From positions 566,858 to 630,857 of the forward strand of contig OY979724.1 in assembly GCA_963855995.1 (NCBI GenBank): a stretch of 64,000 nt of DNA, in the 5' to 3' direction. The translations under genes were made by a program, and so were the position numbers. Origin of the DNA: Muricea muricata (lineage: Eukaryota; Cnidaria; Anthozoa; Malacalcyonacea; Plexauridae). The notes beneath the pieces were generated by a model that searched no databases, was not told the DNA's origin, and was given only the letters and a program-made list of their open reading frames with translations. Below are positions 4,381 to 63,767 of this stretch, piece by piece; within the stretch, counting starts at the first letter, position 1, and each line of letters starts with the position of its first letter.

Positions 4381-4448
4381 TGGTTGTTTTGCACTTCGCA
4401 AAAAGAACAATTTTTTTAGGTTCGAAAATTTTACAAAAGCGACTGAGT

Positions 4449-27866: not shown

Positions 27867-27894
27867 TGATCATTTGCTTTTCTTCTTTTAAAAT

Positions 27895-40100: not shown

Positions 40101-43100
40101 TACTAGTGAGGCTCCGGCAGGTGGGCTTAAGTTGTCTAAACGTTCTAGCCTATGCTTAATGCTTAAAACTGACCAAAGCCAGAACGATTTTTGGCAAAGC
40201 TAGGGAGGTATTGTTCCCGGACTCAGTGATTGATTTTGATGGATACATATTGTCTTTACCACTAGACTATGTTAGTTACCACTTTCCATGTTAGTTACCA
40301 CTTTCAAAGGGTTAAGAATTATCATAAATATACACGCTAGATTAAATCGAAGTTATTCGAGCCCATTTGCGAGCTTTTGTTCGCATTTCATCAAATAATA
40401 TTTAATCATACTCTGTCGAGGAAGACCCTGAAGTTGCTTTTGAGTGTAATTACATTTTTAAATTATGTACAAATTTATTTCTAAATAAATCCAATTGAGT
40501 CTTTTGCAATATCACAAATAACAGAAATGGGTAAGGTCAAAACTTGATCATATAGTAGGTTTCTGGTGCTACGAATTTTAAAAGCCTATATTTTTGTGAG
40601 TAATAAAACATTTGAAAAATAAATGTGTGTTGAAATCAGCCTTCTCTTATACTCGGAGAAGACCTTGTAAATTCTGATCAAACATACTTTTCCAAATATA
40701 ATGACCTAGCTATAGGCGTCCAATATATATATCATTGAACAAAGCAGATCACTATTTAAATCTAATTTCGAAGAACAACATTATTGCTGGAGCACTACAG
40801 AGACGATAGGTATTAAATAAATGGAAATGTGTTTCGCTGATTGCATAAATGACCACGCAAATTATATTTTGATGTTTATGATAAAACTTACACAGCACGT
40901 TAATAACAGCAGCCTATATATAGATGCATGTGCGCATGGCAATAGTGCCTACCTGGTCGTAATTCAACCACAATCAGTGCAACAGCAAAGCATGACGTAT
41001 ATAAATACAAATCGGTCGTACTATAGTATCACCGATTTGTATTTATATACGTCATGCTTTGCTGTTGCACTAATTGTGGTTGAATTACGACCAGGTAGGC
41101 ACTATTGCCATGCGTGATCATTTGCTTTTCTTCTTTTAAAATATCTGCCTGTACTTAGGGGAAACAGGCAGATCTCTGGAAACAAGAAAGGCTGAACACA
41201 TCAGAAACGTTAAGGAACATAATAATGGTTCAAACATCGAAAAACGTGCAACGCGAAAATCATTGACACAGGGAATTTCCGTAGTCGCCTAACACTAGAA
41301 AGTCTAGAATCATGGCATACAGCTGCCAAACACAGCAATGCTGATAACAACTCAAAACCGCTTCCTCGACAATGTACAATCTTAATAAAGAAAACATAGT
41401 ATCACCTTATCGTATTTCACAGTGCACATGTATACACGTCATATCTAGCTTCATTTCACACTTTTACAGTTTACTGCAATCATTATAAATATACCCGTTG
41501 AAGGCTACAGACTGGTGGCCGAAAGCTCGTAAACAAATAAATATATTTTAGTCAGAGAACGTCTCACCCTTTTCATTTATGTCTAATTGACACATCTACG
41601 ATTTTTAGTGGTTTATATTGTTTAACCGTTTCTTAAAGCTCATTCAGTGAACAACGGGTAAAATAGGGCGAGTGTAATAGCCCTCGCGGTCTGGTGGTAA
41701 GGCAATGTGGCGGTAAATAAACAACGCAGCTGAACGATAATTCCCTTGCTCTGAATTCTTTTCTTGTTTTAGAATTAATTATAGGCTAGAGAAAAGCCCG
41801 CTTAAACAATTTAAGTGGCAAGCGCGTGATAGCAAACATGTATAGTCTAGTGGCCAATGCAAAATGTCTCAAGTCAACGAGTTTTTGGTCAAACCTAATT
41901 GCCCTTGTCACAAACCCCATAGGTTTTTGTCTGGGGTAAGAATTATTATAAATATACACGCTAGATTAAATCAAAGTTATTCGAAGCCATTCGCGAGCTT
42001 TTGTTCGCATTTCATCGAATAATATTTACTCATACTCTGTCGAGGAAGATCTTGAAGTTGCTTTTGAGTGTAACTACATTTATATGCACAAATTTATTTC
42101 TAAATAAATCCAATTGAGTCTTTTGCAATATCACAATAACAAAAATGGGTAAGATCACAACTTGCATGAGCATACAGTAGGTTTCTGGTGCTACGAATTT
42201 TAAAATCCCATATTTTTGTAAGTAGAACATTTGAAAGATAAATGTGTGTTGAAATCAGCCTTCTCTTATACTCGGAGAAGACCATGTAAATTCTGATCAA
42301 ACATACATTTCCAAATTTAATGACCCAGCTATATGACGTTCAATATATATCATTGAACTAAACAGATCACTATTTAAATCTAATGTCGAAGAACAATTTT
42401 ATTGCTGAGGCACTACAGACACGATAAGTATTAAATAAATGGAAATGTTTTTCGCTGATTGCATAAATGACCACGCAAATTATATTTTGATATGATAAAA
42501 CTTATACAGCACGTTAATAACAGCAGCCTATATATAGATGCATGTGCGCATGGCAATAGTGTCTACCCGGTCGTAATTCAACCACAATCACTGCAACAGC
42601 AGAGCATGAGGTATATATATACAAATCGGTGATACTATATCTTGATGGTCTGATTCGAAGATACAGGGTTTTAGCACTTACGGTCTGGGGGCCGCTTCTA
42701 CCCTCCCCTATATTTCGAACCAGAGGTGGTGGAGTTATGACACAAGACGGTTGAGGCAGTCAATTCGATGTCGTTGTCGAAAGGCAACGGCATTTGGTGG
42801 GTTGTCGAGGCCAATTGTGTGCGAAGCCATCCGAGTGCCATCCGCGTGCAAACTTTTATTACAATACCCCGGTCCTTTTTACCATCGTTATACATTTCCA
42901 AGGCTAATCCTTCGAAGGTAGCAGAATTCCTGACACCTTTTGGAACTTTCTAATTTAAATTGGTTACGCTAGTGTGCAATCTCTTATGATTCTTTTCAAT
43001 AGCCCTAATGTAAGTGGTATAGCATAATTCTTTTCAATTATTTACTTGGGCTTTTTTGCAAAAAAAAAAAGATGGTTCCCACCGTTAAGAAAAACTATAG

Positions 43101-44745
43101 CATTTTGAGCACGGTGTTTTGTCCAATTTTTTTCGATGATTTTTTAAAACTGTTATTTTCTCCATTTACCAGAAATTTTGTCAGTGCGGTTAAGAACGAA
43201 ATAAAAATTTTCACTTATCAGACTGTATGATACAAAGAAGTTGTGAAATTTTGACGACTTCTTTTCTAAAAAAAATTTCAAAATAGACAAAAAGATACTT
43301 TGGAAAGGGTCATAATTCTTCCACTTGACGAAAACTATTTAATGCATGGGCAGGAATTGATCCTAGCCACCTTTGTTGAGTCATTTTTACTTGACCACTG
43401 GATTACGTTGGTTACTAGTGAGGCTCCGGCAGGTGGGCTTAAGTTGTCTAAACGTTCTAGCCTATGCTTAATGCTTAAAACTGACCAAAGCCAGAACGAT
43501 TTTTGGCAAAGCTAGGGAGGTATTGTTCCCGGACTCAGTGATTGATTTTGATGGATACATATTGTCTTTACCACTAGACTATGTTAGTTACCACTTTCCA
43601 TGTTAGTTACCACTTTCAAAGGGTTAAGAATTATCATAAATATACACGCTAGATTAAATCGAAGTTATTCGAGCCCATTTGCGAGCTTTTGTTCGCATTT
43701 CATCAAATAATATTTAATCATACTCTGTCGAGGAAGACCCTGAAGTTGCTTTTGAGTGTAATTACATTTTTAAATTATGTACAAATTTATTTCTAAATAA
43801 ATCCAATTGAGTCTTTTGCAATATCACAAATAACAGAAATGGGTAAGGTCAAAACTTGATCATATAGTAGGTTTCTGGTGCTACGAATTTTAAAAGCCTA
43901 TATTTTTGTGAGTAATAAAACATTTGAAAAATAAATGTGTGTTGAAATCAGCCTTCTCTTATACTCGGAGAAGACCTTGTAAATTCTGATCAAACATACT
44001 TTTCCAAATATAATGACCTAGCTATAGGCGTCCAATATATATATCATTGAACAAAGCAGATCACTATTTAAATCTAATTTCGAAGAACAACATTATTGCT
44101 GGAGCACTACAGAGACGATAGGTATTAAATAAATGGAAATGTGTTTCGCTGATTGCATAAATGACCACGCAAATTATATTTTGATGTTTATGATAAAACT
44201 TACACAGCACGTTAATAACAGCAGCCTATATATAGATGCATGTGCGCATGGCAATAGTGCCTACCTGGTCGTAATTCAACCACAATCAGTGCAACAGCAA
44301 AGCATGACGTATATAAATACAAATCGGTCGTACTATAGTATCACCGATTTGTATTTATATACGTCATGCTTTGCTGTTGCACTAATTGTGGTTGAATTAC
44401 GACCAGGTAGGCACTATTGCCATGCGTGATCATTTGCTTTTCTTCTTTTAAAATATCTGCCTGTACTTAGGGGAAACAGGCAGATCTCTGGAAACAAGAA
44501 AGGCTGAACACATCAGAAACGTTAAGGAACATAATAATGGTTCAAACATCGAAAAACGTGCAACGCGAAAATCATTGACACAGGGAATTTCCGTAGTCGC
44601 CTAACTCTATGGCATACAGCTAAAGACCGGAATGCTGATAACAACTCAAAACCGCTTCCTCGACAATGTACAATCTTAATAAAGAAAACATAGTATCACG
44701 TTATCGTATTTCACAATGAACATGTTTCGAGTTGCGATAATAAAC

Positions 44746-45673
44746 CATAGAAATAATAGATATAGAATGCGTACTCGGTCACGAATCATGTCGCCACTTT
44801 TTTTCGCAAGTGCCCTTTTAAATCCGCCATATTGAATTTAACCAGAAGTTGAACTCGGCAGAGTGTATATACAAAGTTCATCATAAATAAATCACTTAAA
44901 TAGTATCACATTTACAGTTTAGAATATAGCGCTCTTGAAGAAACAAAATGAAATAAAGATAGTTTTTCATATAGTCGTGTATTTAACACAAAAAACTGTT
45001 GTAGTTTTGCGTAAACATGATTTAATTTTGAAACATTTTGCATTCCCAAAGCATGACTGAAAATTTCGCTATAAGCAAAGCCAAAGTGGCCAAATGATCG
45101 TTTTTTCATTGACTTTTGAAGCTTAATAATATATCTTTAAGTTTCCGTTTCAAAAAACAGCAGCTATGTAAACTATAGTAAACTATATTATGTTGAGTGT
45201 AAAATGTAATTGTATGAGCAAATATCGATTACTTGAAATTGTCATTGCCAAATTGCATGCCTTTTAAATATATTTTCTTAAGAAACACAGACAAAAACCA
45301 CCAAAGGTAACCCTTTCGTTCTTTGTAACTATCAATCATCGTAACTGTTTTCATATATATGTATTTTAAAACGCTAAAACACACCTGTTGAGACTGTTTT
45401 TCATCCTCTGACTCTGTTTTTGAGTTTTATCTTTTTCGGCTTTTGCAGCAATATTTCTCTGTATTATCTGCTCAGAACCAATCCTTTCTCGTAAAAAACT
45501 CATAAAATTCGTTTTCCTTTGTTTAAAAGTTTTTATGAACCATTTTTCCATGTAAAGTCGTGAATTTTTATCTTTCTGTAAACTTTGCTTGACAAAAAAA
45601 AACAATCGCACTCCTCGCAACCGCGCGAAATTCTTTGGACTATGGTACGCATTCTATATCTGTTATTTCTATG
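44746..45673. mobile_element. Non-autonomous DNA transposon, 29 bp TIRs, 8 bp TSD
   Basis: Left terminus 44746-44774 (CATAGAAATAATAGATATAG...) and right terminus 45645-45673 are inverted copies with one mismatch in 29 bp. Perfect TAATAAAC duplications lie at 44738-44745 and 45674-45681. The 928 bp interior encodes no transposase; its minus-strand frames are short and Lys/Phe-rich. An 8 bp duplication fits the hAT or P superfamilies; the CATAG start does not settle which. Confidence 0.85.
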
Positions 45674-45884
45674 TAATAAACTTACGTGGTGTTTCCACAA
45701 AATTATATGCTAATTTGACTTTGAATTGATTATCTTTACTGGCGAGAGCCACTGAGCTCTATATATGATATTGCTGCTGGAGAATAATATATTTCACCCT
45801 CTGACCCCGGGTAGTGCCCAGGTAGTGCCCTGGATTGACCTGAGCATCTAGCACAACTGAACATGCGCTCAGCCAAAAAGCAAG

Positions 45885-46179
45885 ATGGCCACACTTTATA
45901 GAAAGAGTGTAAATTTTTTAAAGCTAGCTTGGATCCAGCAGCCTGTATTATTTGTCTCTACGGTAATTGGAGCTTTAGGTAAGATGCACTATATTCTTGT
46001 CTATTGATTTATGAGTTTCAATTGTAATTTCACATGTAATGTTTGTGACAAGAATGTGTTCAATATTTCTGCACCAATACTTGTCTGACCTATATTTGTA
46101 GGTCCGCTAATTGTGTTTATCAGTCCTCTCAGTGAAGGAGCTATCAAAGCAACACAAGATATACCAATGAAATATCCAT
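45885..46179 (+). CDS. NDUFA3: NADH dehydrogenase 1 alpha subcomplex subunit 3-like, exons 1-2 (partial)
   Basis: Exon 1 is 45885-45978 and exon 2 is 46102-46179, joined in phase 1 (donor gtaaga, acceptor tatatttgtag). The 56 residues match NDUFA3: a short basic N-terminus, FLKLAWIQQPVLFVS leading into a single membrane segment (about 18-41) and, after PLS, an amphipathic segment ending DIPMKYP, corresponding to the family's ATPYNYP. NDUFA3 is a small accessory subunit of mitochondrial complex I in the inner membrane, usually about 84 aa. Exon 2 ends at a phase-1 donor (gtatgt). The last exon (PVPVRDDG in the family) was not found before 53 kb. It may be very diverged, or the gene may be broken by the repeats downstream. 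Reading through the donor gives unrelated residues. Confidence 0.75.
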
Positions 46180-46341
46180 GTATGTATGTAATCTTATGTA
46201 CTTCACTTGCACAACTGCCTGCATGGATAGTTGTTAAAAGAACTGTTCTTTATTATTGGCAAATTGCATTTTCCACACATGGGGTTAAAGTGCAAAAGTA
46301 CAGGGGTAGAAGCATTGATATAGGAGACATAGATTGCTGAC

Positions 46342-47817
46342 GTATACCCAGTGGATGTGGGGTCAACAAGAGAAATCCAACATGGGCAACAAGAGGGCAA
46401 AAGACAATAGAATCTATTACAAAATCGACGATTTTTTGCAGATTCTGCCATCCCTTTGTTTCGAAACTCATCTGATCAAATTTTAAGCATATATTTGAGT
46501 AAATTTGATAAGAAGTCGCAAAACTATTCATTGATAAAAGTTTATGTGAAATGGTCTCTTGGTGAGTTCAAGCGTTTCATTGCCTGAAATACTGCAATAT
46601 GTTGACATATAGCCTCTTGAATAGTTTCCTATACTTGTAACAAGCATTCTGAAAACAATAGAGGAATAGTATGAGAAATAATTGTAGTAATCGTATTCGT
46701 TCAGAACATTCAAGAAGTCCTATTAGGCTTGGAATCACATGCTGTGTCCATCCGAGATTGCTTGCAGTGTTTATTTAATCAATTTCATATATCTGCTTCT
46801 GCAGGCTGTCCGTGGACGAATAAATTTTCAGTTTTATAGACCTTTCCGGTAGTTACGTTACGGCTGAAGACATGACCATAGTGTCAATTATAGTGTGTCT
46901 AAACTAAAAATATTCTTGCTAATTTTTAAACTAAATTGGTGCTGATCCTGCAGTTTCAGTAATTTCTGAAATGAAAGTAAATTGATATTAGTCATCACAA
47001 TGTTCCAACTTTGTGTTGGTAAGTGTTCTCACCCATGTCACTACCAGGCACTTATTAATGGAGGCGATTTACCTGGCTAAACAAGTTGAAAACTATATGT
47101 GATGAAAGCTAATGAGCACAAGCCTTTGATCTTATTATGCCCTTTTCAACTTTGGTAAGTCACCTCAATATAATAAACACCTTATTTCAGTGTTAAAATT
47201 ACTTAAATTTGATAGCAGTTAACTGAGTAATATATAATATCAGTTGAGTTGAAAGCCTGAAATGACACTCAAGTTAACAATTAAAACTGAAAATTTTTTT
47301 GTCCATGGACAGTCTGTAGAAGCGGATGTATGAAATCAATAAACAAACACTGCAACCAAATGAACCAATCTCGGATGAACACAACATGTGATTCCACGCC
47401 TCATAGTCTTGAATGTTCTGAGCGAATACGATTACAACAATTATTTCTCATACTATTCCTCTATTGTTTTCAGAATGCTTATTACAAGAATAGAAAATGA
47501 GGCTATATGTCAACATAGCGTAGTATTTCAGGCAATGAAATGCTCAAACCCACAAAGAGACCATTTCACATGAACTTTTATCGATGAATAATTTTGCGAC
47601 TTTTCATCAAATTTACTCAAATATATGCTCAAAATATTTGCATTATGTTTCTCCTTCCTATAAAACTGGATCAGATGAGTTTCGAAATGGAGGGATGGCA
47701 AAATTTGCAAAAAATTGTTGATTTTGTAATAGAGTCTATAGTCTTTTACCCTCTTGTTCTGCCATGTTGGATTTCTCGTGTTGACCCCACCTCCGCTATA
47801 AGTATACAAAAATGAGT
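46342..47817. mobile_element. Fold-back element with ~500 bp inverted arms
   Basis: The left arm (46342-46838) and right arm (47282-47817) are long imperfect inverted copies around a loop of about 440 bp. Both ends start GTATAC and then carry GTGGGGTCAAC and AGAAATCCAACATGG. Frames seen in the two arms on opposite strands are mirror products of the same DNA. No transposase. Confidence 0.85.
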
Positions 47818-48242
47818 TTAACTGGCTAGAAATGATGTTTTTAATAAAAGAAGACATATTCTATCATTTTTGCAAAGTTTCAAGAGATTTCAAGTCAATA
47901 TGCCAAGTTACCATATTTCAGCCCCAAATACCAAATTACCAAATCAGGCATTGGATCAGGAGACCATAGGTAAAATTTTGAAAATTTGCAAAAATGAGTT
48001 TGACTGGCTAGAAATGAGTTTTTTCATAAAGGAAGACATATTGCATCGTTTTTGCAAAGTTTCAAGTGATTTCAAGTCATGCCAAGTTAACATATTTCAA
48101 CCCCAAATACCAAATTACCAAATCATGCATTGGATCAGAAGACCATAGGTGAAATTTTGAAATAACTGGCTAGAAATGAGTTTTTTCATAAAAGAAGGCA
48201 TTCTTGATCATTTGTGCAAAGTTTCAAGTAATTTCAGTGATT
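47818..48242 (+). repeat. ~180 bp satellite, first block
   Basis: About 2.4 head-to-tail units marked by GTTTAACTGGCTAGAAATGA, TTTGCAAAGTTTCAAG and CCCCAAATACCAAATTACC. The same unit resumes at 49433-49800. Confidence 0.85.
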
Positions 48243-48690
48243 GCCACTAAGTTTAAATTGTCTGAGCGGGGTTTTCTCTAGCCTATATTAATTCTTAAAC
48301 ATAGCCAAAACGAAAATAATTCAGACCAAGAGAATTATCGTTCAGCTGCGTTGTCGAATGTGGTTTGAATTATTTACCCATTTTTAATTGAATGAGGCAC
48401 AAATTTTTACAAAAAATGCCATAAAATATTTGGAAAAAATACGTTATACCACTTATATTAGGATTTTTGAGAAGTACCATATGAGATTACATACTAGCGT
48501 AAGTCAGGAATTCTGCTACCTTCGAAGGATTAGCCTTAAAAAAGAGAGCATAGCGATGGTAAAATGGACCAAGTTTTGTTATAAAAGATGGCTTTGGACA
48601 TTTGGCTCTGGGGGGGTTGGACGTTGTTTTCGCCAACATTAACATCCAATTGACTGCCTTCGCCTAATATCGATATCGTGAATATTTTAC
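48243..48690 (-). repeat. Inverted, independent relative of the 3.3 kb array module
   Basis: Read on the minus strand, it contains AAGGCTAATCCTTCGAAGG with GCAGAATTCCTG (as in B halves), then CCTAATATAAGTGGTATA, then CAACGCAGCTGAACGATAAT and ATATAGGCTAGAGAAAA (as in A halves). In the array these parts lie about 2.1 kb apart, here about 175 bp. This copy may therefore preserve the original continuous element. Confidence 0.75.
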
Positions 48691-48965
48691 CCAGGTTATG
48701 TGTATCTTTTGGGAAGTTTAAGAGCAAATATATGCGATTGGAAGACAGAAAAGGTTAACATTGTCGCTGAAATGTGACAAATGTGACTGTACATAAATTG
48801 ATTGTCTGGCTGATTCTAAAACCTCACAATGCGTATTAATAGGTAGGTGAACTAAGGACTGACCGCGAGTTATAAGCGTGAAATATTCTTGCGCAAAAGC
48901 AAGAGGAAAATACAACCTAGCCTAACTTTCCGTAAACAATCACCAACTATATTTAAAGCTGATAT

Positions 48966-49313
48966 TCACGCCGAGGGCGTAAGAGGAGTACTGCCATTCT
49001 GAACTTTATGAAGTGATGTTCCAATCGAATCAGTCTTAATGTCTTTTTTAATATGAGATTTTATTTTCTCATCTTTCTTTCCATCTATATCAGTCTTTTC
49101 TGCTGTTTTTTTTTCAAGCTCTAAGTTCTTCTGCATTCTTACTGCAAGTTCTTGATGCAGATCTGAGGACACAAAATGTACTTTAACATTCTTTTAGGAA
49201 TATCAGAATTCATACAATGTACGCCTTGCTTCATCTTTTCATCTTTAGACTTTTTCAACTAACGTCTCCTTTTCATCTAGTTCATTTTCCAGTATTGCCT
49301 TTCTTTGAATTCC
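48966..49313 (-). CDS. Possible 3' exons of a coiled-coil, Lys-rich protein (uncertain or broken)
   Basis: Two minus-strand exon-like segments. 49313-49251 has acceptor tttttcag and reads RKAILENELDEKETLVEK. 49162-48966 has acceptor cctcag and reads DLHQELAVRMQKNLELEKK, then a Lys/Asp-rich stretch and GSTPLTPSA before TGA. Both are helical and charged like a coiled coil. Phases do not join cleanly: the first ends in phase 0 at GTCTAA while the second needs phase 1. A short exon is missing, or there is a frameshift. No family recognised and no upstream exons found. Confidence 0.3.
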
Positions 49314-49432
49314 CTGAAAAAATGATAAATACCTGTCAAAGTCCAAATTCACCACCAACTCCACAGGAAACATACAAATAAATTTAGACCATGTTGCAAA
49401 TACTAATTCAGTCGCTGTTCAAGGTGTTCTAG

Positions 49433-49800
49433 TGATCTTTTGCAAAGTTCCAAGTGATTTCAAGTCATTGTGCCAAGTTAACATATTTCACCCCCAAATA
49501 CCAAATTACCAAATCAGGCATTGGCAGAGGAGACCATAGGTGAAATTTTAAAAACTTGCAAAAATTAGTTTAACTGGCTAGAAATGACTTTTTTATAAAA
49601 GAAGACATATTCCATCATTTTTGCAAAGTTTCAAGCGATTTCAAGTCAATATGCCAAGTTACCATATTTCACCCCAGATTTCCCCAGATACCAAATCATG
49701 GATTGGCACAGGAGACCATAGGTGAAATTTTGAAAACTTGCAAAAATGAGTTTAACTGGCTAGAAACGATTTTTTTCATAAAAGAAGACATATTCCATCA
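49433..49800 (+). repeat. ~180 bp satellite, second block
   Basis: Two further units of the satellite at 47818-48242, in the same orientation. The last unit is cut off at CATATTCCATCA by the next repeat. Confidence 0.85.
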
Positions 49801-49802
49801 GG

Positions 49803-50100
49803 CTGCTGATTACAAGCCTATGTTCACTTCACCTTTGGCTCAGTGGTTATAGGCTTGTAATCACCTCCCCTTTGGCAACTAATCGTTGAATAGCCTTCGA
49901 CGGCAGATTCCAAATAGAGTTCAAAGTCGGAAGTAAACACCTTTTGTAAACACTTGGAAATTTATGCTAAAACAATTAGTCACCTCAGGCTCGGTGATTA
50001 CAAGCCTATATTGACTTCACCTTCGGCTTAGTAAATATAGGCTTGTACTCGTAAACCTTGCCTTCGGCGACTAATCATTAAATAGCCCTCAACAGGCAGA
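49803..50100. repeat. Dispersed palindromic repeat, copies 2 and 3
   Basis: Two tandem copies of a palindromic module (GATTACAAGCCTATGTTCAC ... TATAGGCTTGTAATCAC; GATTACAAGCCTATATTGAC ... AAATATAGGCTTGTA), with AACTAATCGTTGAATAGCC and AAACACTTGGAAATTTATGC between them. Related to 13110-13270. Confidence 0.7.
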
Positions 50101-50582
50101 TTACAAATAGAATTCAAAGGACACTAGTAAAATAAGTGGTGTGTAGCTTTAAACCTAATATAATATAATATAATATATATTGAGTAATCGGGAATATATA
50201 CATATAAATTGCATGACATGATAGATCTGTGCGGTTTGTGATATGCTACAAGTTTTTCTTAATGAGCATGGTATATTGCCCAGGAAGTAGCATAGAGTTA
50301 TTGTCAGCATGTTTTCAAATATTACTTTATTTGATGTAGATCACATTGTTGCTGAAGGTAGAAATTCTGAAGAATGAAAAGACGTGACATTTTATGTAAA
50401 TACAAACCATTATTGACCTTAACTATAGTTTATGTATGAAGGTACTATTTTGAAGATGAATTTGTTGAATGTGTGAATTGCAAGGGATAGTATGTGTTTT
50501 ATTTCTAGTTTGTAGTTAGGGTCATTACTTTTGTTAATTTATGGTGTCTGTGCTTTTATCTACATCACTATCTATTAGAACT

Positions 50583-50815
50583 CCCCCCCCCCCCTTCATT
50601 GACCCCCACTGCTCAGTTACCAGTTGCTCAGTGATCACCCCTGCTTAGCAAACAGTGATCCTCCACCCCCTCCCTACTCAATAGTTCAATAGTCTCTCGT
50701 GCTCAGTTGTTCAGTAATCCTCCCCCCTCCCTCAGTTGATCCATTATCTCCCACCCTGCTCAGTTGCTTCATTATCTCCCCCCCTGCTCAGTTGCTCAGT
50801 GATAAACTGCTTCGA
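50583..50815 (+). repeat. C-rich degenerate minisatellite
   Basis: Repeats of TGCTCAGTTGCTCAGTGAT alternating with poly-C or CTCCC tracts, unit about 35-40 bp, strongly diverged. A short ATATAATATA run at 50156-50180 precedes it. Confidence 0.7.
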
Positions 50816-52889
50816 GTTATGAATTTGAATGAGGACACCTATTAGAGTCAGTGCACTTGAAATATAATTTTTTATTCCATTTTCAAGTATAAGGTATTTT
50901 TACTCTCGTTTGCTTTTGTCCTTATTTCAGAGGGTACAAATTTTGGAAATTTTAAGAATCGCTTAGTTTCCAATGTGCAATTCTTCTTGCAACTTGCAAT
51001 GCAATCTGACTTAGGTTGTTAAGTGAACGGCAGTCGAAAGAAGGTAAAACTTGGTCCTCTGCCAGAATGTTCCATAGCATTTCTTTTGTAATTCAGCTCT
51101 TGAAGACGGGGTTTTTATCAGGTTAACTAACTATAATGCTAAACAAATAGCATTGGCCTGAGTCAGAATTGAATTGCAAGTTTCAAGGAAAATTGCAATA
51201 TGTTACAGCGAAAAACAGCTTCTTAATCTAAAGCTTTATACTAATTTCCATCCTATACTCCTGGTCAAAGATCAATACAGCTGAAGTTATCGCTCACGAA
51301 TATCTCTCTTACAAAGACGTCTCATAAGTATTCAAAACTAATTTAATAATAGCTATGCTTGTTTCATTGCACGCAAATTTTGAAAAGTCCGCCGCGGGGT
51401 GGCTTGTATGCACAAAAGACGATCAAAAGTATCGTGAGAAACTTGTCGCTTTGTTTTGAAATTATTACAGCAAGGAAATTAAGTAGAGCTAAGACATTTT
51501 ACTCAAGCTTGCCGACGGTATTTCTTGATTAAGGGATGACGTTCTGAAAGGAATAACAACCGCTGTATCGAGGTAAGAGCTATTTCCTTTTCATGCGCGG
51601 TTAAGAAAGCTTTCGAACCGTTGAAAAATGGCAGGGAAAATCAGTACGACGCATTTATAACTTGGCTAAACTCAAGGGCGGCAAAACCTGCTTGAATTTT
51701 GAGTGGAAAAGTTGGAAAGAAGAGCAAGAAATTTACAAGGAAATTCTCGCATAACAGCTACTTTCTTTCAGTCACTAATCGAAATTCTTTAACTGAGTTT
51801 CATCAAAATTTGAGCAAGTTGTTGGTTTGTACATATGCTTTATTAGGGGATCAATGTGTTCTTAATGACTTTGTGATGTGTGGACAAACTTCAATACATC
51901 CATACGCCCCGTTGAAATATTCTGCGATTGATAATTGGACATGTTTAATCGTTGATTAGACGAGAATAGCAAAATTTTACATTTAAGTTTTCTAGCATGC
52001 AACTTGAATGAAACGAGAAAAAGGAATTGCGTTAGAGTTGATTAGATAATGCTGAAAGTTTTCAAGTATTTAGACTTGCGTCAAGAGTGCACGGGTTGAA
52101 GTAGACGAATGTTAATAGCACAATATCAGGCGTTGATGTAGCGAAGACTTTCGAAATCTCTGAAGAAAATTTAACTACCTCAAAGTTAATATATAGTCAT
52201 AGAGCTGCATGACCATTGTGCATAAGAGTTGAATTTCTCGTCGACTCGTGTTCTTGTACAACTCAGAACTATCAGGGTAACAGAATTTCAAATATCAGTA
52301 GACGGATAAAAGATACACGACACGACTTTGTGAGGACATAAAAAGAGCACCCATGATTGTTGACCGGAATTCCTGCGCGATTAACTCACGCTAATTGCAA
52401 CTTTTACGGGCAAAGTTACAGTTGTCAAAATTTGATTAATCTCAGTATTAAAGATGCGGGTATGATTTTACATATAATGAGAATAAATTATCTGAGCCAG
52501 TGATTCCCACTTGATGGACACACGACAGGGTATTCTTTGAGATATTATGTGGTTAGTCAAACAGTGGACCCCAGCGTGATCCTCGTATTAGAGATAATAG
52601 TAAATTAAGACAGCTTTTTTTGTCAAGATGTGTTCGCAATTTGAACACATGTTGAGATAAGCGTAGGTACATTTTGGATTACTTCGCCCACCCCTGCAAA
52701 AGAATGTTCTGTTCAAAATGTGGGGTAATCCGGGGTGTATGGGTAGTTTGTAACAATTTTATCACGTTGTATCCCTTAGTAAAACGTCTGAACCAGACAA
52801 CTCTATGTAAAATACTGGAAAGATAGCGCAGCCTCGTGTTTGGATGAAGCCAAGATGGCAAAAATTGACGTTCAATAACTGTAAATAGA
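50816..52889. other. Intergenic stretch, probable promoter side of the scaffold gene
   Basis: No convincing coding exon. CGAG|GTAAGAGC at 51569-51578 is a good splice donor and could end a 5' untranslated exon of the gene at 53399, joining at the acceptor TATTTTTGTAG before 53370. That link is inference. Confidence 0.3.
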
Positions 52890-53047
52890 GAGGTGCAGAT
52901 TTTGCTTCCAATACCTCTAGCGCTACCTTAATCTATCTTTCAGCCAATCAGATGTGTCGTACCTACCAGATTAACCAATCAAATTGTTTAAAAACTGGTA
53001 AAAGGTACAGGTAGTGGTAGAGGAAGTCAAATCCGAACCTCTCCAAT
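52890..53047. mobile_element. MITE, copy 2 (family of 10520-10669)
   Basis: Starts GAGAGGTGCAGATTT and ends AAATCCGAACCTCTC, with inverted termini. The interior is collinear with the copy at 10520-10669 (CAGCCAATCAGATGTG, ACCAGATTAACCAATCAAA). Confidence 0.75.
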
Positions 53048-53398
53048 GTCGTAAACAGTTCTAATGCCATTTTCCGGAGCTTGAACTTTTATATTGAGTT
53101 GGTGTTCCAGTTGCATTACAGTTCACTAAGAGCCGCTTAGCTTAACCCTGGTTTAACGTAAAATTTCTTTCGAAACTTCCAAGCAGTTTGTAACCTTGAT
53201 AATATTTCTTCAGAAATCATGTCGGGATCAATAGTAGTTTTGGTTTCGAAAGTGTTGAAATAAACGGAGGTGTAGGAATACTGAAACGAAAACATTGGGT
53301 TAAACTTTAACCCAGTGCTAACCAGCTTTGAACAACTGGTCCATAGTTCTGTATGTATTATTTTTGTAGACTTGTTGTATGGGCAAGAGTAGGACACG

Positions 53399-56300
53399 AT
53401 GAAGCAATTTCATTTGGAAGTGAAAGAAAATGAAGAGCTTGCACGTGGTAGAAAGGTATTTGATCAAACCATTTATGTTTCCGCCTTGGAGCGAGGAACG
53501 CGCGATCGTTCCCCGAGGCGAGTTGGACCGCTGCCCGATCGTATTGAGTTTAAAATATGCCCACAAAAAAATCATCGCGGGCGCATGAACTACTATCGGG
53601 CTCGTAGTATCCCGGAATTGTGCCGCATCACGCTTACACCCACCGGGGAAACGTCCCAGCAACAAGGCCGCATGGAAGAAGTATACATCACACAATATAC
53701 TCACTCCTTTGACCGTGAGATTGAGAAGCCCCATGTAGTAGCCTGGAAACGAGCTTTCGAAGACAGTGACGTAGCTCACAGAGATAGCAAATTGTGTATA
53801 GTTAATTCCCCGGTGGGGTCAAAAAACGAGGGCTACCCGGAACGTCGGAAATCTGCCCCTCCCGGGTCATTTGTCTTCAATTACGATACTCTGGATGTGC
53901 CTGAGCCCGTACTCCGCAGATCGAAGTCCCTGGGAACAAATATGAACGACCTCGTAGATTTTGATAATATGGATACCCAGGAAGGAGCAAATGCCAGTGG
54001 GAACATTGATCTCGAAATGGGAGAAAGTACCGGTGGAAAGATGCCGGTGAGACCCCTGGCCCACGAGACAATATCTGCTCAGAAACAAGAGCAAGTTGAA
54101 AGTGTGGATTTGAGTTTTTGGGTGGATGATGCTTTCAAAAAATTTGACGATGGAGAAACTTCCAACAACACGACCAATGGCGTCAGAAATGGTCACGTCA
54201 CAGCTGGTGATACTGTGGTCGATAATGTTGCAGCTGATAGCGCAACAACGAGCTACGTCAGAAATGGTGACGTCAGAAGTGGTGACGTCACAACTAGCTA
54301 CGTCAGATATGATGACGTCAGAGGTGGTCACATTACAACCAGCTACGTCAGAAGTGGTGATGTAAGATCTGATGACCTTTCTAATGGATTGAATGTTCCA
54401 TGTGATGAGATCACACACGATTCACGCGAGCACAACAACATGCAAGATCCAACAAAACAAGCCCTTTCCTTGATCAGCACCCTAAGGTCGACGGTAAAGA
54501 AACCAGACAGTCAAATGTTCCTTCGCTCCGTCCATGCAACTCAAACATCCTCGGAATCCACCGGCAAGAATCATGTGCCCCGGAAAAACCAATCAAAAGA
54601 CCCCACACCACAGAAACTCCCTGAGCAGGGTGTTTTATACCGTAGCACAGTCCAACCAAGAACTTCGTCCACCAGAGAGTATCCACAGAAAGTAACACCT
54701 CGGATAATATCCAATCCTCGCAAAGAATGTACATATCAAACAGTCAGACAACACGAAGTTCTTCCCCGGGAACCTGTACTCCCAGAAAAAAAGTCACGTA
54801 AGAAACTACCTGCGGAAATTATGCCTGGGAAAGTTGTAGCACGGGAAGATTTACCCCGGAAGGATACTCAAGTAGAAACTGAGCTAAACAGTGATCCAAT
54901 GAGGAATCACCCAAAGGATAAAGCTCAGGTGAACCATGAATATGGTTTGGTAAAAAAGAAATATATTTCGAAATATGAACCAACAACAACAGTTCCAAAC
55001 CATTCAACATCAAAACCAAATAATTCCTATCCACGATCAGATGAGAAAGAAAAACCTTCCAAACGCAAAGTTGACCAAGATGGAGTCAAAACTAGTCACT
55101 TTTCGCGGCCCAAAAAACAGACAAGCTCTGAGCTTCAGGACACAAGTTACGATTCATATGAAAATGTTCACGTAAAGTCCGTTGCCTCGACGAAAGTTTC
55201 GGATAAAAATCACCCATCTCTTGGCAGCTCTGAATTTAGATTTGAAAGTGCTACAACGAATCAGAAAGAAGACTATTACCAAGAGCCAAAATTGATACTG
55301 AACACCATGGAAGGATCTGAAACACATTACAGCATTCTTCCAAAATATTTTGAAAACCATCAACCAAAGTCTGCAATAAACGTGACTGCTGAGCACATGA
55401 CACCTGATCAAAACGGAGACCATTATCAAGAACCAAAACCAATACTAAACACAGTGGAAAGATCTGAAGCAGATTACAACACTCCTCAACAACATGGTGA
55501 AAACCATCAACCGAGGTCTGCAATGAACATTACTCCTGAGCAAGTAACACCTAAACAAAACGAAAAATATTATCAGGAACCTGATCGTGAAGTTAGGCGA
55601 AATAAGACAGTTAAAACAAACGATTACAATCATCTCACGCGGTCACAATCTACTGAGGGTCCAGCGTCTGAGCAAGTCTCGAAACAGCACTATGAAGAAT
55701 ATCATCAAGAGCCAAACTTCGAAGAAAAGACATTGAGTGGTTACTCCAAGCAAGATGGGAATACAGTGCTTAATATAAACTCTACATCAAGCGTACTTCC
55801 TGGAGAAGAAGGTAGCCAGACCCTAAATGAAGATTATTACCAGAATGTCGATAAAAGAACGAGGGAAATGGTCGTAACGAATTACAGTGTCCATTCTAAG
55901 CAAGATGGTTGTACAGTAAAAGACCATAAAAATACTTCAAATGTGTCGTCTGAGCAAGTTGAAAGAAATGAAGATCACTACCAGATTCCCAATTCTTTAG
56001 TGATGAAGTTGAAACCGTCTGAAACAAGTCCTGGTAGTCATGTTAAACAAGCTAGACACACAACATACCGCACAACTATTGAAGGAACAACCTGCAGTCA
56101 GGAGGAAGATTACTATCAACACACCAACTCTGATGTAAACACATCAAAAACAGTCGAAGTTGATCAGAGTTTTCATCTGAAACAAGAGAGAGATTACAAC
56201 AAGAATGGTAAACCCACACTTGAACAAGGGGAAAACTATTATCAACAACCGAATCCGAGTGCTAGAAAGATGGAAGCACAAAATCAACCTCAAAGATACG

Positions 56301-59300
56301 ATGAAGATGCACGTTATCACTACGACTCACAAATCGCTGGTGGAACGTCAGAATCCCGCACACCAGATGAGCACTATTATCAGCAACCTCGATTCGATCC
56401 AAAAACATTTCCCGCACCAACTATTTTAACAAAGCTACAGACGAACACAAACGTTTACGAGGAACCCAAACATTCGACAACGTCTTTACAAAAATGTCCA
56501 CTGGATCAAAGTGATAGGCAAAGAAACGACAACGATTACAATAAATCACTGCCTGAAGTTCCAACTGAACGGAAAACAAGTGAAACGTATTATGAAACGC
56601 CAAAAGATGCACACCCTTCATCTATGAAATGTCCAATTGACGACACTGACGCCGAAAGAAGTGTAACCGGAGATTATTTTGGGCAGACGGTTGAACATAT
56701 TTACGAACAACCAAATTTTGAAACAGAAAGAGTTTATGAACAATTTGATTATGAAAAGATGAACGCGCCTCAATCAAAGTTGCCTAGCAGTAGTTTTAAG
56801 AAAGTGAGCGACTCTGAAAAGGACGAAATGTATGAGCAACCAGACAAAATGGTTTATGTAAATGTGGAAGATAAGACAGACAGGAAACATCTCGATTCCA
56901 GGATGAGGTGTAAAGTCGTCAAGACAGAACATCTTGAAGATACGCCCGGTGAAGTCTGCCATAAGCCTTCTATGAAGCAAGAAAATACAAAAAGAAGTGG
57001 AGCTCTAGTCCCAGAAACTCTTCACACCATTCAAGCTGATAAGCAGAATAATAACACCAGTTCTACAGTTTCCACAGCGAAAACACCCCATCATAGTGAT
57101 GCTGTCAATCCAAACCACAAACAAACTGATTATCAACAATCTTCCATAACATCTCTGAGGTCCATGAATGATTTAAAGAAAGATTTGAAGAGTGCTGATC
57201 AATCAACTCGTGTCAAATACGGCGGTGAAATTAACACAAAAAAATCAATGGTGTCTTCTACGTCATCGCTACCACCCAACCAATCAGATGACAGGATTTC
57301 CAACAATAGTCCGAACAGTCAAAGTGCGTATTCTGAGGGTGAAGTATTACCCCAAAAACCAGAAGCGGAAGTGAGCAAGGAGAGAACACGGGTAAAACCT
57401 AAGGCAGTTAATGGTGAAAAACCGCAATACGATGAAATCTCTCCCAGTACTTACAGCAAGGATAATAGCGGCAACACAAGTCTTGCCAGATTTTCGTCTT
57501 TCAATAGTGAAGCCTCTTATAAACGAAGATTGACATCCGCCTGGATTGAACAGCAAAGAATAAACTTTAGAAAGAATGTAAGTCGAGAGCCGAGTTTAAG
57601 AAGAACAAAGTCGGTTGAGCTTCATAAAGAACGTGCAGCGTCTGAAGATACTGCCGATTATAAACTGAAACATTCTAAAAGTGAACTAAGTTTTGAACAC
57701 CTTGATGCAATGTACGAACCGTTTGACGACAAGCATTTTGATACGAATCCTAATAAACACCCAGTGAAAGTCGTGCATGCTGCTCCGTCTGAAGTGTTTA
57801 CAAAAGCGAAGTCACTTGAGCGTCGCGTTGAAAAGGCTGAAGAGCCTGAATATTTTTCGCAAGAGAATATTTCATCAAACACGGAAAGCTTGACAAGATC
57901 GCGAGGAGAGAACGCAAAGGATGAAAATCCTGAAAGTAGACGAATATTTGTAGAAGGAATTATATCCAGACAAGATGGTATGGCGACGAACAGTGAGGTC
58001 AATCCATGGAGAGAACCGAATAAAAAATCTAAAGTTCGTCCTAAATCTGCTGATGTCTCTGAGTTTGATAGAAGAACTTTTAATGATCAGACTGAACGGT
58101 TGTGGATCGGGGAGAGGTCCTTGCGTGATGCTGAGTTCAGTCAAAGATCTAAACCTCGCCCGAACTCCACAGACGTGTCAGGATTTGATGTAACCAGGTT
58201 TAGCAATGGAGGAACAAACCTCCCGATGAGAGAAAATAATCGTGGGCTAGAAAACAACAAGAGTAAACCCAGTTCTGTCCAGAGGTCAAGAGTTCGACCA
58301 AAATCTGCGGATGTTACCACATTTGACATAACAAGCTACAACGAAAGACAACAAATCGTGTCGATGGAAGAAAAAGATGAAAGACTTGCAAAAAACCAAA
58401 GCAAAACCGGTTCTGTTCAAAAGTCAAAAGTTCGACCAAAGTCAGCTGATGTTTCCGGATTTGATGTCGCGACTTATAATGGCGATGAACCCACACTGAA
58501 ACATTCAAAGAGCGAAGTCAGTGTGAATCAGTTGAAGGCCATGTACGATCCATACGATCAGAACTCCTGGTTCTCGCCTGACCCTGCCTCGCAACATGTA
58601 AACCAATCAAATACAGTGCAAGTTGAAGCGACCGTACATGACGTAGTTCATCGGAGGACTCGTTCTGAGCCCGAGAGTAGGCCGGACAGTTCAAAAACTG
58701 GCAGGAAAATGGACCAGATTGAACCAAAAACAAGCAAAGGAGAAATAAGAAGTTTAGAAAGTGAGCCAGTCAAAAATATCACGAAGTTAGATAGTTCCTC
58801 GGTATTGTTATTGAACGTTGTTGAAGTCGAACAGAGTGGTCAACCTAAGAACTCAAATTTTATAAGAAATGTTTCTGGGAAATCGAATTCAAATATCGTG
58901 TCCGTTAGAGCAAGTGAGATTGAAAATAAGAAGCATTTGACAATGTCAGAAACCAAAGTAAGAGAATCGACAAGAAATACGAAACAAAACAACAGTGATA
59001 ATGCTACGAAATCTAGTACAGATCAAATAATTCAGAATGAAAAACCTATTGAGAAACATAGAGCTCGTTATATCACAGGTGGTGAGAGAGCTAGCGTGAG
59101 ATATTTGTCGAAATCAACCGATGAACTTACGTCTAATGATAATGAAACAATGAAGGAGATTTTACCCGAACTGCAGGGAGAACAAAAACCATCGAAAGCT
59201 CCGAAAAAAGACGGAAGATTCTTGAATTTCTTTGGAAGACTAAGAAAATCAAAGTCGGAACCAAATTTAGACAAAAATTTCGATATTCTTGATATCGATT

Positions 59301-62300
59301 CCGATCATGGCGGAAAGAAAGAAAATTCTCAGACATTCAAAGAACCCGAGAAAAATTTCAGTGAAACACCGCACGAGAACTCCAAAGGAAAATCACCGAA
59401 TAGTTCCAGGAGTCTTAAGAATTCGTTTTATCCAAAGCTTAAGAATTTAGCGAAGAATTTCTCGAAATCAAAACAAAGCAAGACTGATAGTAGTTTTAAT
59501 GATAGTGGTGTGGATTCAGGAAAGGATATTTCAACGAATCAAGAATTCGCAGAAACGTCGGTTATCTCGGAAAGTAAGGTAGAAAGAGAGAATGTTGAAA
59601 TTACAGAAAGTCAGGTTGTTCGTTCTCAGAATGTTGCATCCAGAAAAATCGATTCTTCGATATCGTCCCAAAGCGTTGATTCTACTAAATCTTCACAATA
59701 TCACGCAAATAAACATGAAACACCACAACTATTCGTCCAGATTGAGCAGCAGTCAGTGCAAAAAGATAAAGAAACTGAACCTATTTCTCCATCAAGTCCC
59801 GTTACATCCCCGAAAAGCGCAAAGAAACGGTTCTTCCAAGGAGGAAATCGCGTTAAACCAGTTACCGTTACAGTAAAGGATTCTGACAATAATCCCGGTA
59901 AGACACAGGGGAAAACTACGTCGAATAGTGTAGTGACTTCTCAAGGGAGTCAGAAAAGCATAGCAAATGAAGAAAGTCTAGAGAAACGCAACAGAATAAT
60001 CAGTACCTCATTGCCACCCACACCTATAGATAATCATCAGGACAGGATCACCGAGACACCAGTTTCAAGAAGTGTGGACGATACAGCATTGAATTCAAGA
60101 CCAGTCTTTGAAGCTGACTCAAAATTGCCTGAAGATCAAATGCAATTGCATTCCACTTCAAATGAAAGCATGCACAGGGAAGCCAAAGAGAGAACGACAA
60201 GTTACCGCATTACTGAAATCACAGGCAAAAGAGGAAGTGTGAGCGATGGAAATAATTCTAGATTTATTGGCAGCTCCACAAGACGAGAACACTTGAAATC
60301 CATTGATCAGTCAGCCTCAGACTCAGTCGTCACTTACAAGAATAATACAGACAAGATTTGTGAGATTACCCTTCAAGGCGATGATAGCAAGAACCCTGAT
60401 ATAAATTCAAAACGCGAGGAGTCCAAGGCCAAGCAGAGCAAAGAATCTGAAATTGCTAAAACCAAGCATCGTTCCTTCTTTAAGACAAAAATCTCAACGA
60501 GTGCTGGAAAAGCGAGCTCGTCCCAAGGTCGAGACAGTCCTGAAAGAAAAGGGAAGAAAGAAGATAGGAAAGAGTATGAAGGTACAAGAGAGACAGAGGG
60601 TAGGAGTAGTGAGGATCCTGGTCAGGACTCTACAGTGATAAAAGATGATACGCTGGACAATTCCAATCCGGTTTTGAAGGAAGAATCTACTTTAAGTAGC
60701 AGCAAAGAAATTGCCAAGAGCCGTGAAGCACTGAAAGAAGAAAAGAAAGTTAAGAAGCAATCTTTAAAAGATAAAGAAGATAAAGAGAAGAGTGAATTCG
60801 GGACGAAAATCAAAGGATTTATCACGAAGGTTTTACCCCAAAAGGACGCGAAGAAAAGCTCGTCAAAAGAAAATAGTGTGAACGAAACTCCTGGAAAAAC
60901 AACTGTGGCTGAATCAGGATCCCCAGATGAAAACAACAATCCTACCACAAGTTCAAACGATGATAACCAACAACCAAATACCTCCTTCATTACGAAGTCT
61001 AGAAGGTCCATCTTTGTGGCGAAGCATTTGGGCGAATCTGATACGGAGAAAACAAGAACATCCGAGGAAGAAGGAGGCGAGGTGCGAGTTGAAACAAAGA
61101 AATTGACCACATCACATCCGGATAAAAGTGAGCGAAGATATGCATCAAAGGCGAAGCACTTAGGTGATCATAAAACTATAAAAACAAAAAGCTTTGAGTC
61201 CGAAAAACACACCGGTCAAAGATTTTTGACTGTAGAAGCAGACGATATCGTGCGGGAAAATTTGAGAGGGAGTGGAGTTGGTAGTACGAATGGCAAACGT
61301 TCTTTCCCTAAGAGAGATGCATTCGAACCGAAACGACTACAAAATGAGAGCATTACCAAAACAGAGGTTGTGGACAACGTCGAAGCCTTTGATTCAGTTT
61401 TTGATTTTTTCGAAAACGAATTCAATGATGAAGAAAGTAAAGATGGTAAGGAGGAATCTTTGCCAAAACCGGATGCACAAAAACATTCAAAAGAATTTAA
61501 AAAAGCAAGCAGTGGTTTGGTTGTATCAAATAACACCCTAGAACACGGGAGAAACTTTAGAGTTTCGAACGAGAAGGAGAATAGAGCGAAGAGAGATGAC
61601 AATCAATTGGCGAGAGGTGATAGGATTAATGGATTGAAGGGAAGTGGTGGACATATATCGACTACACATGTTAATGTGAATACAACTGATGCAAAGTGCC
61701 AAGAAATATCCCCAAATGTACACACCAAAGGGGATATACCAGAGGAGACGACAGCTGATGAAAAACAGAGAAATTTGGAGCAGATCAAAGGATTTACGAT
61801 CAAACACACGAAGACAAGCAGTCTGATTCTGAACAAAAGTATTGAAGATGATTTGGACAAACTTGGTGAAGACAGTGATGAAAATCCTCAGGGGAATTTG
61901 AAGCATCGAGAGTTGAATACATACCAAGGTAATCATATTATTTCACTATTAATATCACCTTTTTGTTTTTTGTATTTCAAAAGAAAACATGTTTAATCAG
62001 TGGCTTTATAAGTAATCGTCCTGATTAGTATAAACTTTAAATATAATCTTATTGAACGACTATTTGAGTGCTTTTTTTGTAGTTGTTTACGAAAGTTGCG
62101 TCGGTCTCGTGCGAAGCACTCGTATCTTTTTGCTGCACACTAATAAACAACGGCCACTCGTCAAAATCGCGGGCTACATTTTAATTGAAATCACCTGACG
62201 GTAAAGTTAGTAAAATCAACTAGTTAGTTGTCCTTATATTTTTTTCAGTGGAATCTCCGAGAAACGTCAAAACTCACATCACTACAAGTGGCAACAAAGC

Positions 62301-63767
62301 AGACCATGGTAGATCCATTGAGATTGACAAGAATGAAACAACACCTAAAACGACAGCGAGTTCCTCAGCAGGATTTCTAACGAAAGACGAAGAAGACACG
62401 GACCAACATTTGAAATACGTCGAGAAAGTCATGGTATTGGTTCACCGTGGTGCGAGTGATGTCAAAAGACTGGTGCAAGAATCTAACGCGCAATCCAGCG
62501 ACGTACACTCGACCCCAGCTTCCACACCATTATTACACAGCCGTCAGAGTTCTGGAGAAAGCTATGATGGTCAAAGCTCGAGGATGGACCTTACTCGTGA
62601 AATGTCTGGCGCTGAAAAAAAAGTAGTTCGCCCAGTAGAGAAGAGCTTACAAAACGATATAACAAGCGACGAGTCTTCGTTTTCAGGTCGTAGACCTTCG
62701 GAACACAATCGGACCGGTTCTAGAGACGACGACAGCAGGAGCAAAGTTATTTTAACTCGTGAAATGCCTGCTGAGAATGCCATGATAACTCGCTTGAGCC
62801 CTGAGAGAAATTTCAGAAGCGTCATCACAAATCAGGATAAAAAACGCGTTTTGAAGATGAACGGAGATTGGGGTGATGTTGTTGAAGAATTTCTCATAAC
62901 AAATAAAACAGAAACAACATCGAGTGATGTGAAGAAGCGGCATGGAGATGAATTGTTTGAATTTATTGAAGAACAACTTGTTCTTGAAAAGACTTCCGAA
63001 CAACTGCAACCTGAAGACTCCTCGACCCCCATCCAGGATGAGAACATGAAGAACCGTGGTAAGTCTGGTCACCATGATTTCACCAACAGCTCGTTCAGCA
63101 GCACCTCTCGTACAACAAGCAAGTCGTTAGAAATGGTGGATAAAACTGATGGGGGACGCCTCGGCACGCGTGCTGATGTAGAAGGTAATGTCCAGAAATA
63201 CCACAGCACAGCATAGCATAGCATACCATTCCATACTATTAACATTACTTTTTCCTGATTTAGAAACCAAAGAATTCAGTACATCCAGAAATGCAACCAC
63301 CTCTTCACGACTGCATATTACCACAGCTCCAGCAGCCAATTCTACTTCTACGAATTTGGTAAAAACGTCAGAAATGACCACCAGTCTACCACCATCAAAT
63401 GCGGCTACCGTATCGCGAACGAAGATCCGAACCAGACCTCTATCTGCAAATTTTGAAGAACAACGAACAGAAAGCATTACACGCACAGCAACTTTATTAC
63501 AGCAACAAAACGAGACGGTTGCCAGTCAGAAATTGACCAGACCCAAGTCGTTCTTGAATAAGAATACAAAGAAAAATTCAGTGATAGTTTCAATGTCGGA
63601 CGGTGATAATCGCTTGAAAGAAACAGCTGATTCAAATGGCGTTTCCTCCTCAACGAAGAACACGCAAAGAAATTCGAAGAATGAAGTATTGAATACAAAT
63701 GTTGAATTAAAGGAAAAAGCCAAACGGGAGCCGCCTCCTGTTCTGCCAAAACCACAACGAAATAAAG
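53399..63767 (+). CDS. Giant low-complexity scaffold-type protein with YxxP and RPKSADVS repeats (partial)
   Basis: Exons 53399-61928, 62249-63184 and 63264-63767, all joined in phase 1 (donors gtaatc, gtaatg and a final gtaaac; acceptors ttttttcag and tgatttag). The start is firm: TAG lies in frame two codons before the ATG. About 3,323 residues are visible. Residues 1-130 look moderately ordered; the rest is Ser/Lys/Glu/Asn-rich and mostly disordered. Residues about 280-325 repeat GDV and TTSYVR. YxxP motifs occur at Y627, 676, 693, 725, 861, 948, 994, 1020, 1065, 1102 and 1145. RPKSADVS-type repeats lie at about 1547, 1587, 1633 and 1679. Basophilic sites such as RRSKSLG, RRTKSVE, RKSKSEPN and RTRSEP recur, and the last exon ends in PPPVLPKPQR. 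YxxP clusters are known as docking sites for Crk-type SH2 domains in p130Cas, so a tyrosine-phosphorylated scaffold is inferred. No family or domain is recognised. If the last donor is unused, TAG at 63779 ends the protein. Confidence 0.85.
54230..54375 (+). repeat. In-frame minisatellite with TGACGTCA octamers
   Basis: Degenerate repeats encode GDVRSGDVTTSYVR-like units. The DNA has three perfect TGACGTCA palindromes (54268-54275, 54283-54290, 54313-54320) and further TACGTCA words. TGACGTCA is the CREB/ATF consensus, but coding repetition explains it as well. Confidence 0.7.

Follow-up and report, generated by a model that had tools for sequence, protein, structure and literature searches.

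Phosphotyrosine docking proteins with clustered YxxP motifs

The substrate domain of p130Cas/BCAR1 holds 15 YxxP motifs within 306 residues (PMC3983058), and Cas orthologues have been reported from Hydra and Nematostella (PMC5043372). Seven or eight YxxP motifs are also found in the transmembrane receptors DCBLD1 and DCBLD2, where they are phosphorylated by Src-family and Abl kinases; the SH2 domain of CRKL binds to these receptors and that of Abl to DCBLD2 (PMC6029619). In DOK1 (p62DOK), the sites pYAEP, pYDEP and pYELP combine an acidic residue at +1 or +2 with proline at +3 (PMC3514216, Tables 1 and 2) and are bound by Nck1, Abl1 and others, two of the three also by RasGAP (PMC3514216). Choanoflagellates possess transmembrane proteins with YxxP repeats but without an SH3 domain (PTSG_05573 of Salpingoeca and others; PMC5043372). 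In this study, we analysed a YxxP array encoded in a stretch of 64,000 nucleotides (the window) from the cnidarian Muricea muricata, corresponding to contig C9:566858-630857 (OY979724.1) of a 453-Mb genome in 74 contigs. From its sequence features, we propose that the encoded protein may be a giant, mostly disordered phosphotyrosine docking scaffold, which would work like the Cas substrate domain without belonging to the Cas family. We regard this as a tentative reading, nearly balanced between right and wrong.

The idea of a YxxP array outside the Cas family is not new, because choanoflagellate arrays without SH3 have already been reported (PMC5043372). In the literature, searched by titles and openings of abstracts with queries naming neither the protein nor YQEP, we found no account of such a cnidarian protein, of its family or of a YQEP-type array, which is no proof of absence.

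A dense YxxP array in Muricea muricata

The array is encoded in an open reading frame of 2,865 codons (53399-61996 in the list of open reading frames of the window), most of which forms the first exon of our gene model:

55277..56842, plus strand: YxxP array, residues 627-1148, with 11 YxxP in 13 units of the form E-x-[YH]-Y-[QE]-x-P (motif count and unit alignment)
53399..61928, plus strand: exon 1, ATG start at 53399, residues 1-2843, holding the entire YxxP array, donor GTAATC (model)

The original prediction had listed eleven YxxP motifs between residues 627 and 1145, and our recount gave the same number (residues 627, 676, 693, 725, 861, 948, 994, 1020, 1065, 1102 and 1145). Nine of them are of the predicted types YQEP, YQQP, YEEP, YETP or YEQP, the remaining two being YNTP and YQIP. 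The full gene model adds only one further motif, YKSP at residue 3516. At least three YxxP in an intracellular protein of 100 kDa have been described as rare (PMC2689226, citing Feller et al.). The array protein is larger than 100 kDa, yet all of its YxxP but one are located within 520 residues.

Clustering by chance was rejected. When the whole frame was shuffled 500 times, a test independent of the choice of region, the densest stretch of 520 residues contained 2.3 motifs on average and 7 at most, compared to 11 in the real sequence. Shuffling of the array region itself (5,000 times) resulted in a mean of 2.4 and a maximum of 9. Furthermore, proline is present at +3 of 11 of the 37 tyrosines at residues 601-1160, but of none of the 43 elsewhere in the frame, which has 80 tyrosines in total (Fisher test, 8e-5, with the region chosen post hoc).

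The array protein is distinct from Cas

The open frame is rich in S, K, E and T and contains 0.2% W and 0.5% C. In the whole model, the charge-hydropathy line places 4.2% of the 50-residue windows on its folded side. No Pfam family was detected in exons 1 and 2 at E<=1 or in exons 4 and 5 at E<=10, and exon 3 gave three weak matches, all below cut-off, with neither Serine_rich nor CAS_C among them. Both of these Cas domains (Serine_rich, PF08824; the FAT-like CAS_C, PF12026) were likewise not found in exons 1-5. An SH3 domain was found by Pfam neither in exons 1-5 nor in the three plus-strand frames of the 8.9 kb upstream (window 44500-53402), where a single weak match (E 0.053) remained below its cut-off; an SH3 exon might still lie beyond this range. 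The same scan detects the SH3 domain of the Cas gene of this genome. A PDB search with exon 1 gave no matches. The description of the product as a huge disordered protein lacking a visible SH3 domain is thus borne out by the Pfam scans and the charge-hydropathy windows.

Domains typical of other docking proteins were also looked for. DOK1 has PH and PTB domains, and PH-PTB and PH are the defining domains of the DOK and GAB proteins, respectively. At E<=1, exons 1 and 2 contain none of these and neither the CUB nor the LCCL domain that characterises the DCBLD receptors. As far as these exons show, the array protein differs in architecture from DOK1 as well as from DCBLD1/2, with which it shares the type of motif.

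A gene with all the Cas domains is located on another contig. CAS_C has one match in the genome, in the frame C7:1757214-1758854, which also contains Serine_rich. The preceding frame (C7:1755311-1756606) encodes an SH3 domain with BCAR1/CRK-associated substrate as best PDB matches (BCAR1 at 6.7e-21). Since a Cas/BCAR1 gene with all domains lies elsewhere in the genome and the array protein shows none of SH3, Serine_rich and CAS_C, we rejected the possibility that the latter is the Cas orthologue. This Cas gene encodes 8 YxxP motifs. It additionally contains five YDxLP sites off the YxxP register; among them, one YDHLP and three YDQLP follow each other at intervals of 9 residues.

The array resembles the p130Cas/BCAR1 substrate domain in its dense YxxP cluster within a disordered region and in the acidic residues ahead of many tyrosines. 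In contrast, its proline content is 6.9%, compared to 10.0% in the substrate stretch of the Cas protein of the same genome and 19.9% in the mouse Cas substrate domain (PMC3983058). The motifs differ, too: the array is composed mostly of Y[QE]xP, Cas of this genome mostly of YDxP. With the choanoflagellate proteins the array protein shares YxxP repeats outside the Cas architecture, but those are transmembrane proteins, whereas the Pfam scans, which do not address transmembrane helices, gave nothing significant for the array protein. Both phosphopeptides tested from PTSG_05573 were YDVP and bound the SH2 domain of Monosiga Crk (PMC5043372), while the array uses YQEP and YEQP.

Candidate SH2 partners

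Possible readers of such sites are encoded in the genome. Crk is located on C16, with its SH2 and SH3 exons in order (best PDB matches Crk/CrkL), and a Nck SH2 exon on C3 has NCK2 and NCK1 as best PDB matches. Our search gave 22 SH2 matches, six of which cluster on one strand at C15:9.587-9.708 Mb (one at C15:9650467). The one member of this cluster that was checked encodes an SH2 and a kinase domain with Src as best PDB matches.

The array and Cas follow different codes at +1. Aspartate occupies this position in none of the 11 array motifs but in five of the 8 Cas motifs, and Q or E in 10 of 11 and 0 of 8, respectively. We compared both sets with the published preferences of human SH2 domains (PMC3514216, Table 3), scoring positions +1 to +3 only. 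The preferences are D-x-pY-D-[V/L]-P-P for CRK, pY-[D/E]-[E/L]-[P/V] for NCK1, pY-[D/E/S]-[D/E]-[P/N/D/E] for ABL1 and pY-[D/E/G]-[D/E]-P-P for LYN (PMC3514216). None of the array motifs fits CRK, compared to 4 of 8 in Cas. For NCK1, ABL1, BLK, LCK and LYN the opposite applies: each is fitted by 8 of 11 array motifs if Q is counted as E, which is our own assumption (1 of 11 strictly), and by none of the 8 Cas motifs. These values suggest a partner set that probably leans to the SH2 domains of Nck, Abl and some Src-family kinases, with Nck and Abl as plausible readers. In agreement with this, Nck1 and Abl1 bind pYAEP and pYDEP of DOK1, for which the binding data of PMC3514216 considered here do not list Crk.

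The strongest competing explanation is that the array, once phosphorylated, recruits mainly Crk as Cas does, many weak sites offsetting the poor fit of each single one. The Crk SH2 domain needs Leu or Pro at +3 (PMC3514216), and proline is present at this position, as the YxxP motif itself dictates; furthermore, the genome encodes a Crk orthologue. Crk is also listed as binding pYSDP as well as a pYETD peptide carrying three phosphates, and for pY463 of FGFR1 its affinity is given inconsistently, as 380 nM in the text and 44 uM in the table (PMC3514216). However, the D-[V/L]-P pattern is absent from the array and present in half of the Cas motifs of the same genome, and Crk binds pYELP about 70-fold more weakly than pYDVP (23.7 uM vs 0.35 uM; PMC3514216). 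We therefore consider Crk as main partner rather unlikely. The original prediction had named Crk and Nck as the adaptors to be recruited. Because of the missing fit to the CRK preference, docking of Crk appears less likely than assumed there, while Nck stays plausible.

Repeat origin and conservation of the motif core

A tandem repeat is still visible at the beginning of the array:

55268..55581, plus strand: tandem repeat of 147 bp (49 codons) in 2.1 copies that match at 77%, with the first YQEP sites inside (tandem-repeat detection)

Within it, the distance between the first YQEP sites is exactly 49 residues. In a self-alignment, an offset of 49 scored best (-0.12, compared to -0.16 for the best of 300 shuffles), and the next-best offset of 45 (-0.29) was inside the shuffle range. 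We aligned 13 units on anchors at residues 627, 676, 725, 769, 814, 861, 906, 948, 994, 1020, 1065, 1102 and 1145, comprising ten YxxP and three decayed units (YHQEP, YYQNV, YYQHT); YNTP at 693 was not used as anchor. The spacings are 49, 49, 44, 45, 47, 45, 42, 46, 26, 45, 37 and 43 residues. The predicted repeat of about 49 residues is thus real, as indicated by the 147-bp repeat and the best offset, but it is worn, with spacings of 26 to 47 residues between the other units. The array is a worn repeat of about 45 residues in 13 units with the core E-x-[YH]-Y-[QE]-x-P. Flanks of different units show 10.6% identity, compared to 6.8% when tyrosines are drawn at random as anchors (at most 9.0% in 400 draws), which argues for a common descent of the units long ago.

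In the 13 units, Q or E at +1 is present in all and E or D at -3 in 11, and neither position played a part in the choice of anchors. Tyrosine is found in 12 and proline at +3 in 11 units, but these two counts are partly circular because ten of the anchors were picked as YxxP. At the core positions Y, +1 and +3, the proportion of nonsynonymous differences (pN) is 0.145 and that of synonymous differences (pS) 1.06 (saturated in our crude count), whereas the flanks exhibit a pN of 0.65 and 0.67 and a pS of 0.72 and 0.63. All four proline codons and both tyrosine codons occur in the cores, which therefore are no fresh copies. Whereas the flanks and the synonymous sites have reached saturation, the core has been preserved, indicating that the YxxP motif has probably been held by selection while the remainder drifted.

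Alternatively, the array might be a remnant of tandem duplication within a disordered region that evolves rapidly, its YxxP being inherited copies without any phosphotyrosine role. The 147-bp repeat, which still matches at 77%, the loss of the motif in three units and a ratio of nonsynonymous to synonymous substitutions (dN/dS) of 0.77 between the two closest units are in line with this. Mere inheritance, however, would not be expected to leave the core intact in diverged units with saturated flanks and synonymous sites, so that we regard such a relic as unlikely. The docking platform had also been predicted to have evolved independently. The prediction as a whole is partly supported: the array is distinct from Cas, whose gene lies elsewhere, and its cores look selected, but Crk as the specific partner is less well supported.

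Further repeat families and the N-terminal module

Three other features are encoded in exon 1:

53414..53989, plus strand: N-terminal module, residues 6-197, with two truncated copies on C11 (own-genome search, dN/dS)
54245..54367, plus strand: tandem repeat of 45 bp encoding TTSYVRxGDV-type repeats (tandem-repeat detection)
58031..58468, plus strand: another family of repeats, with the motif [KR]xRPxSxDV four times (residues 1545, 1585, 1631 and 1677)

For the GDV motifs, Xin repeats were considered and dismissed by eye only. As these two repeat families do not contain YxxP, the YQxP/YExP repeat might be one of several separate repeated linear motifs, read in unphosphorylated form by a non-SH2 partner such as a cytoskeletal or adhesion protein, but we consider this quite improbable, as an acidic residue at -3, tyrosine and proline at +3 form a known kinase/SH2 pattern for which we know of no other reader.

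Two copies of residues 5-201 are present on C11 (C11:8779306 and C11:8967112; homologous block of 549 bp), with 76-77% identity and a dN/dS of 0.19 and 0.16 compared to the gene in the window. The copy examined has no in-frame ATG ahead of the block, a stop directly upstream and a flanking satellite of about 80 bp. The other one has a stop inside the match and is split across two frames. Both copies are probably truncated and dead. They belong to a pair of duplicated stretches, 95-98% identical over the longest blocks, and are located near transposon-like frames. In total, the exon-1 frame gave 19 scored matches in its own genome: the gene itself (1), the C11 copies (3) and weak matches to residues 192-350 (15). 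None of these scored candidates falls on the array. A profile of the N-terminal module gave no PDB match and no Pfam family.

Proposed mechanism

In the docking scaffold that we favour, the E-x-[Y/H]-Y-[Q/E]-x-P sites would be substrates of Src- or Abl-type kinases, a class of kinase proposed because the acidic residue ahead of the tyrosine and the proline at +3 fit. The readers of the resulting pY-[Q/E]-[E/Q]-P sites would then be SH2 domains tolerating an acidic or amide side chain at +1/+2 together with proline at +3, i.e. those of Nck, Abl and some Src-family members rather than Crk. Kinases among these readers, once bound, could give rise to processive phosphorylation. Avidity and local clustering would result from the large number of weak sites, spaced at about 45 residues, and the N-terminal module and the other repeats may localise the scaffold.

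Besides the binding of Crk to peptides other than its preferred ones, the circularity of the Y and P counts and the dN/dS of the two closest units, several observations weigh against this reading. The fit to NCK1, ABL1, LCK and LYN depends on human preferences and on counting Q as E, the strict fit comprising a single motif. The SRC preference, with D at +1, is met by 0 of 11 array motifs and 4 of 8 Cas motifs. HCK is fitted by 1 of 11 array motifs strictly and 9 of 11 with Q as E, but also by 4 of 8 in Cas. A Src-family reader would therefore be true only of some members. Proline at +4, listed for CRK, LCK and LYN, is absent from the array (0 of 11; Cas 2 of 8). Vertebrate Cas carries some YQxP sites, too, and the tyrosine at -1 of many array units is not a usual Src preference. 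Neither 14-3-3 mode 1 motifs (4 observed, 1.6 expected, shuffle maximum 7) nor SH3 ligands of class I and II (1 observed and 1.2 expected for each) are enriched, and AlphaFold gave no confident fold for residues 1-210 (pLDDT 31).

Gene structure and other features of the window

The spliced model comprises 5 exons and 4 GT-AG introns, with the frame kept throughout and the stop in exon 5, and its coding sequence of 10,692 bases encodes 3,563 residues. Apart from exon 1, it consists of:

62249..63184, plus strand: exon 2, acceptor TATTTTTTTCAG, donor GTAATG (model)
63264..63767, plus strand: exon 3, acceptor TTCCTGATTTAG, donor GTAAAC, proline-rich end REPPPVLPKPQR (model)
C9:630930-631252: exon 4, beyond the window (model)
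C9:631677-632075: exon 5, beyond the window (model)

Upstream of the start codon, one further element was noted:

53360..53369, plus strand: possible 3' splice acceptor atttttgtag, just 5' of the ATG (by eye only)

According to this putative acceptor, an intron may split the 5' untranslated region. The feature had been placed at 53399..63767. Its start corresponds to the ATG, while position 63767 is the end of exon 3 and not that of the gene, exons 4 and 5 lying further on.

The gene is followed by exons of a ubiquitin-conjugating enzyme (Pfam UQ_con), which we take to be UBC9-like from their start MSGIALGRLSEERKAW, and beyond these by a gene with a DUF4485 match below its cut-off, presumably CEP112-like. 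Elsewhere in the window, a tandem array with a unit of 3,312 bp occupies 26086-44426. In this array, a frame of 98 codons starts at 27573, 30885, 34197, 37509, 40821 and 44133, and one of 91 codons at 26086 and again at each of five subsequent steps. A long microsatellite with open frames on both strands is located at 13867-14576. The open frames at 3560-3943 (minus strand) and 4302-4643 (plus strand) encode a UBA-like domain (UBA_8) with a sub-threshold HMG-box match, and we assume them to be UBALD-like. In the last contig of the genome, cox1 is on one strand and cox2, atp8 and atp6 are on the other, an arrangement that, like the cox2 sequence, seemed cnidarian and medusozoan-like. The GFP family, examined as a marker of the clade, gave a single match containing three stops, which did not decide the matter. 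A second COX1 match with a stop codon (C1:38414782-38416095) may derive from mitochondrial DNA copied into the nucleus or from contamination.

Implications

A more far-reaching possibility, doubtful at present, is that M. muricata has two YxxP scaffolds in parallel, each with its own code. Through its YDVP-type sites, Cas would lead to Crk, and the unrelated giant protein, with YQEP/YEQP-type sites, to Nck and to the SH2 domains of Abl- or Lck/Lyn-like kinases, beside a local cluster of Src-like kinases. The independently evolved array would then form a feedback loop of kinase activity rather than a route to Crk. If true, a second array beside Cas would mean that multivalent tyrosine docking arose convergently in a protein without the Cas architecture. 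The presence of YDVP and YQEP arrays in one genome would offer a clean test of whether the residues at +1 and +2 decide between Crk and other SH2 domains as partners of such arrays.

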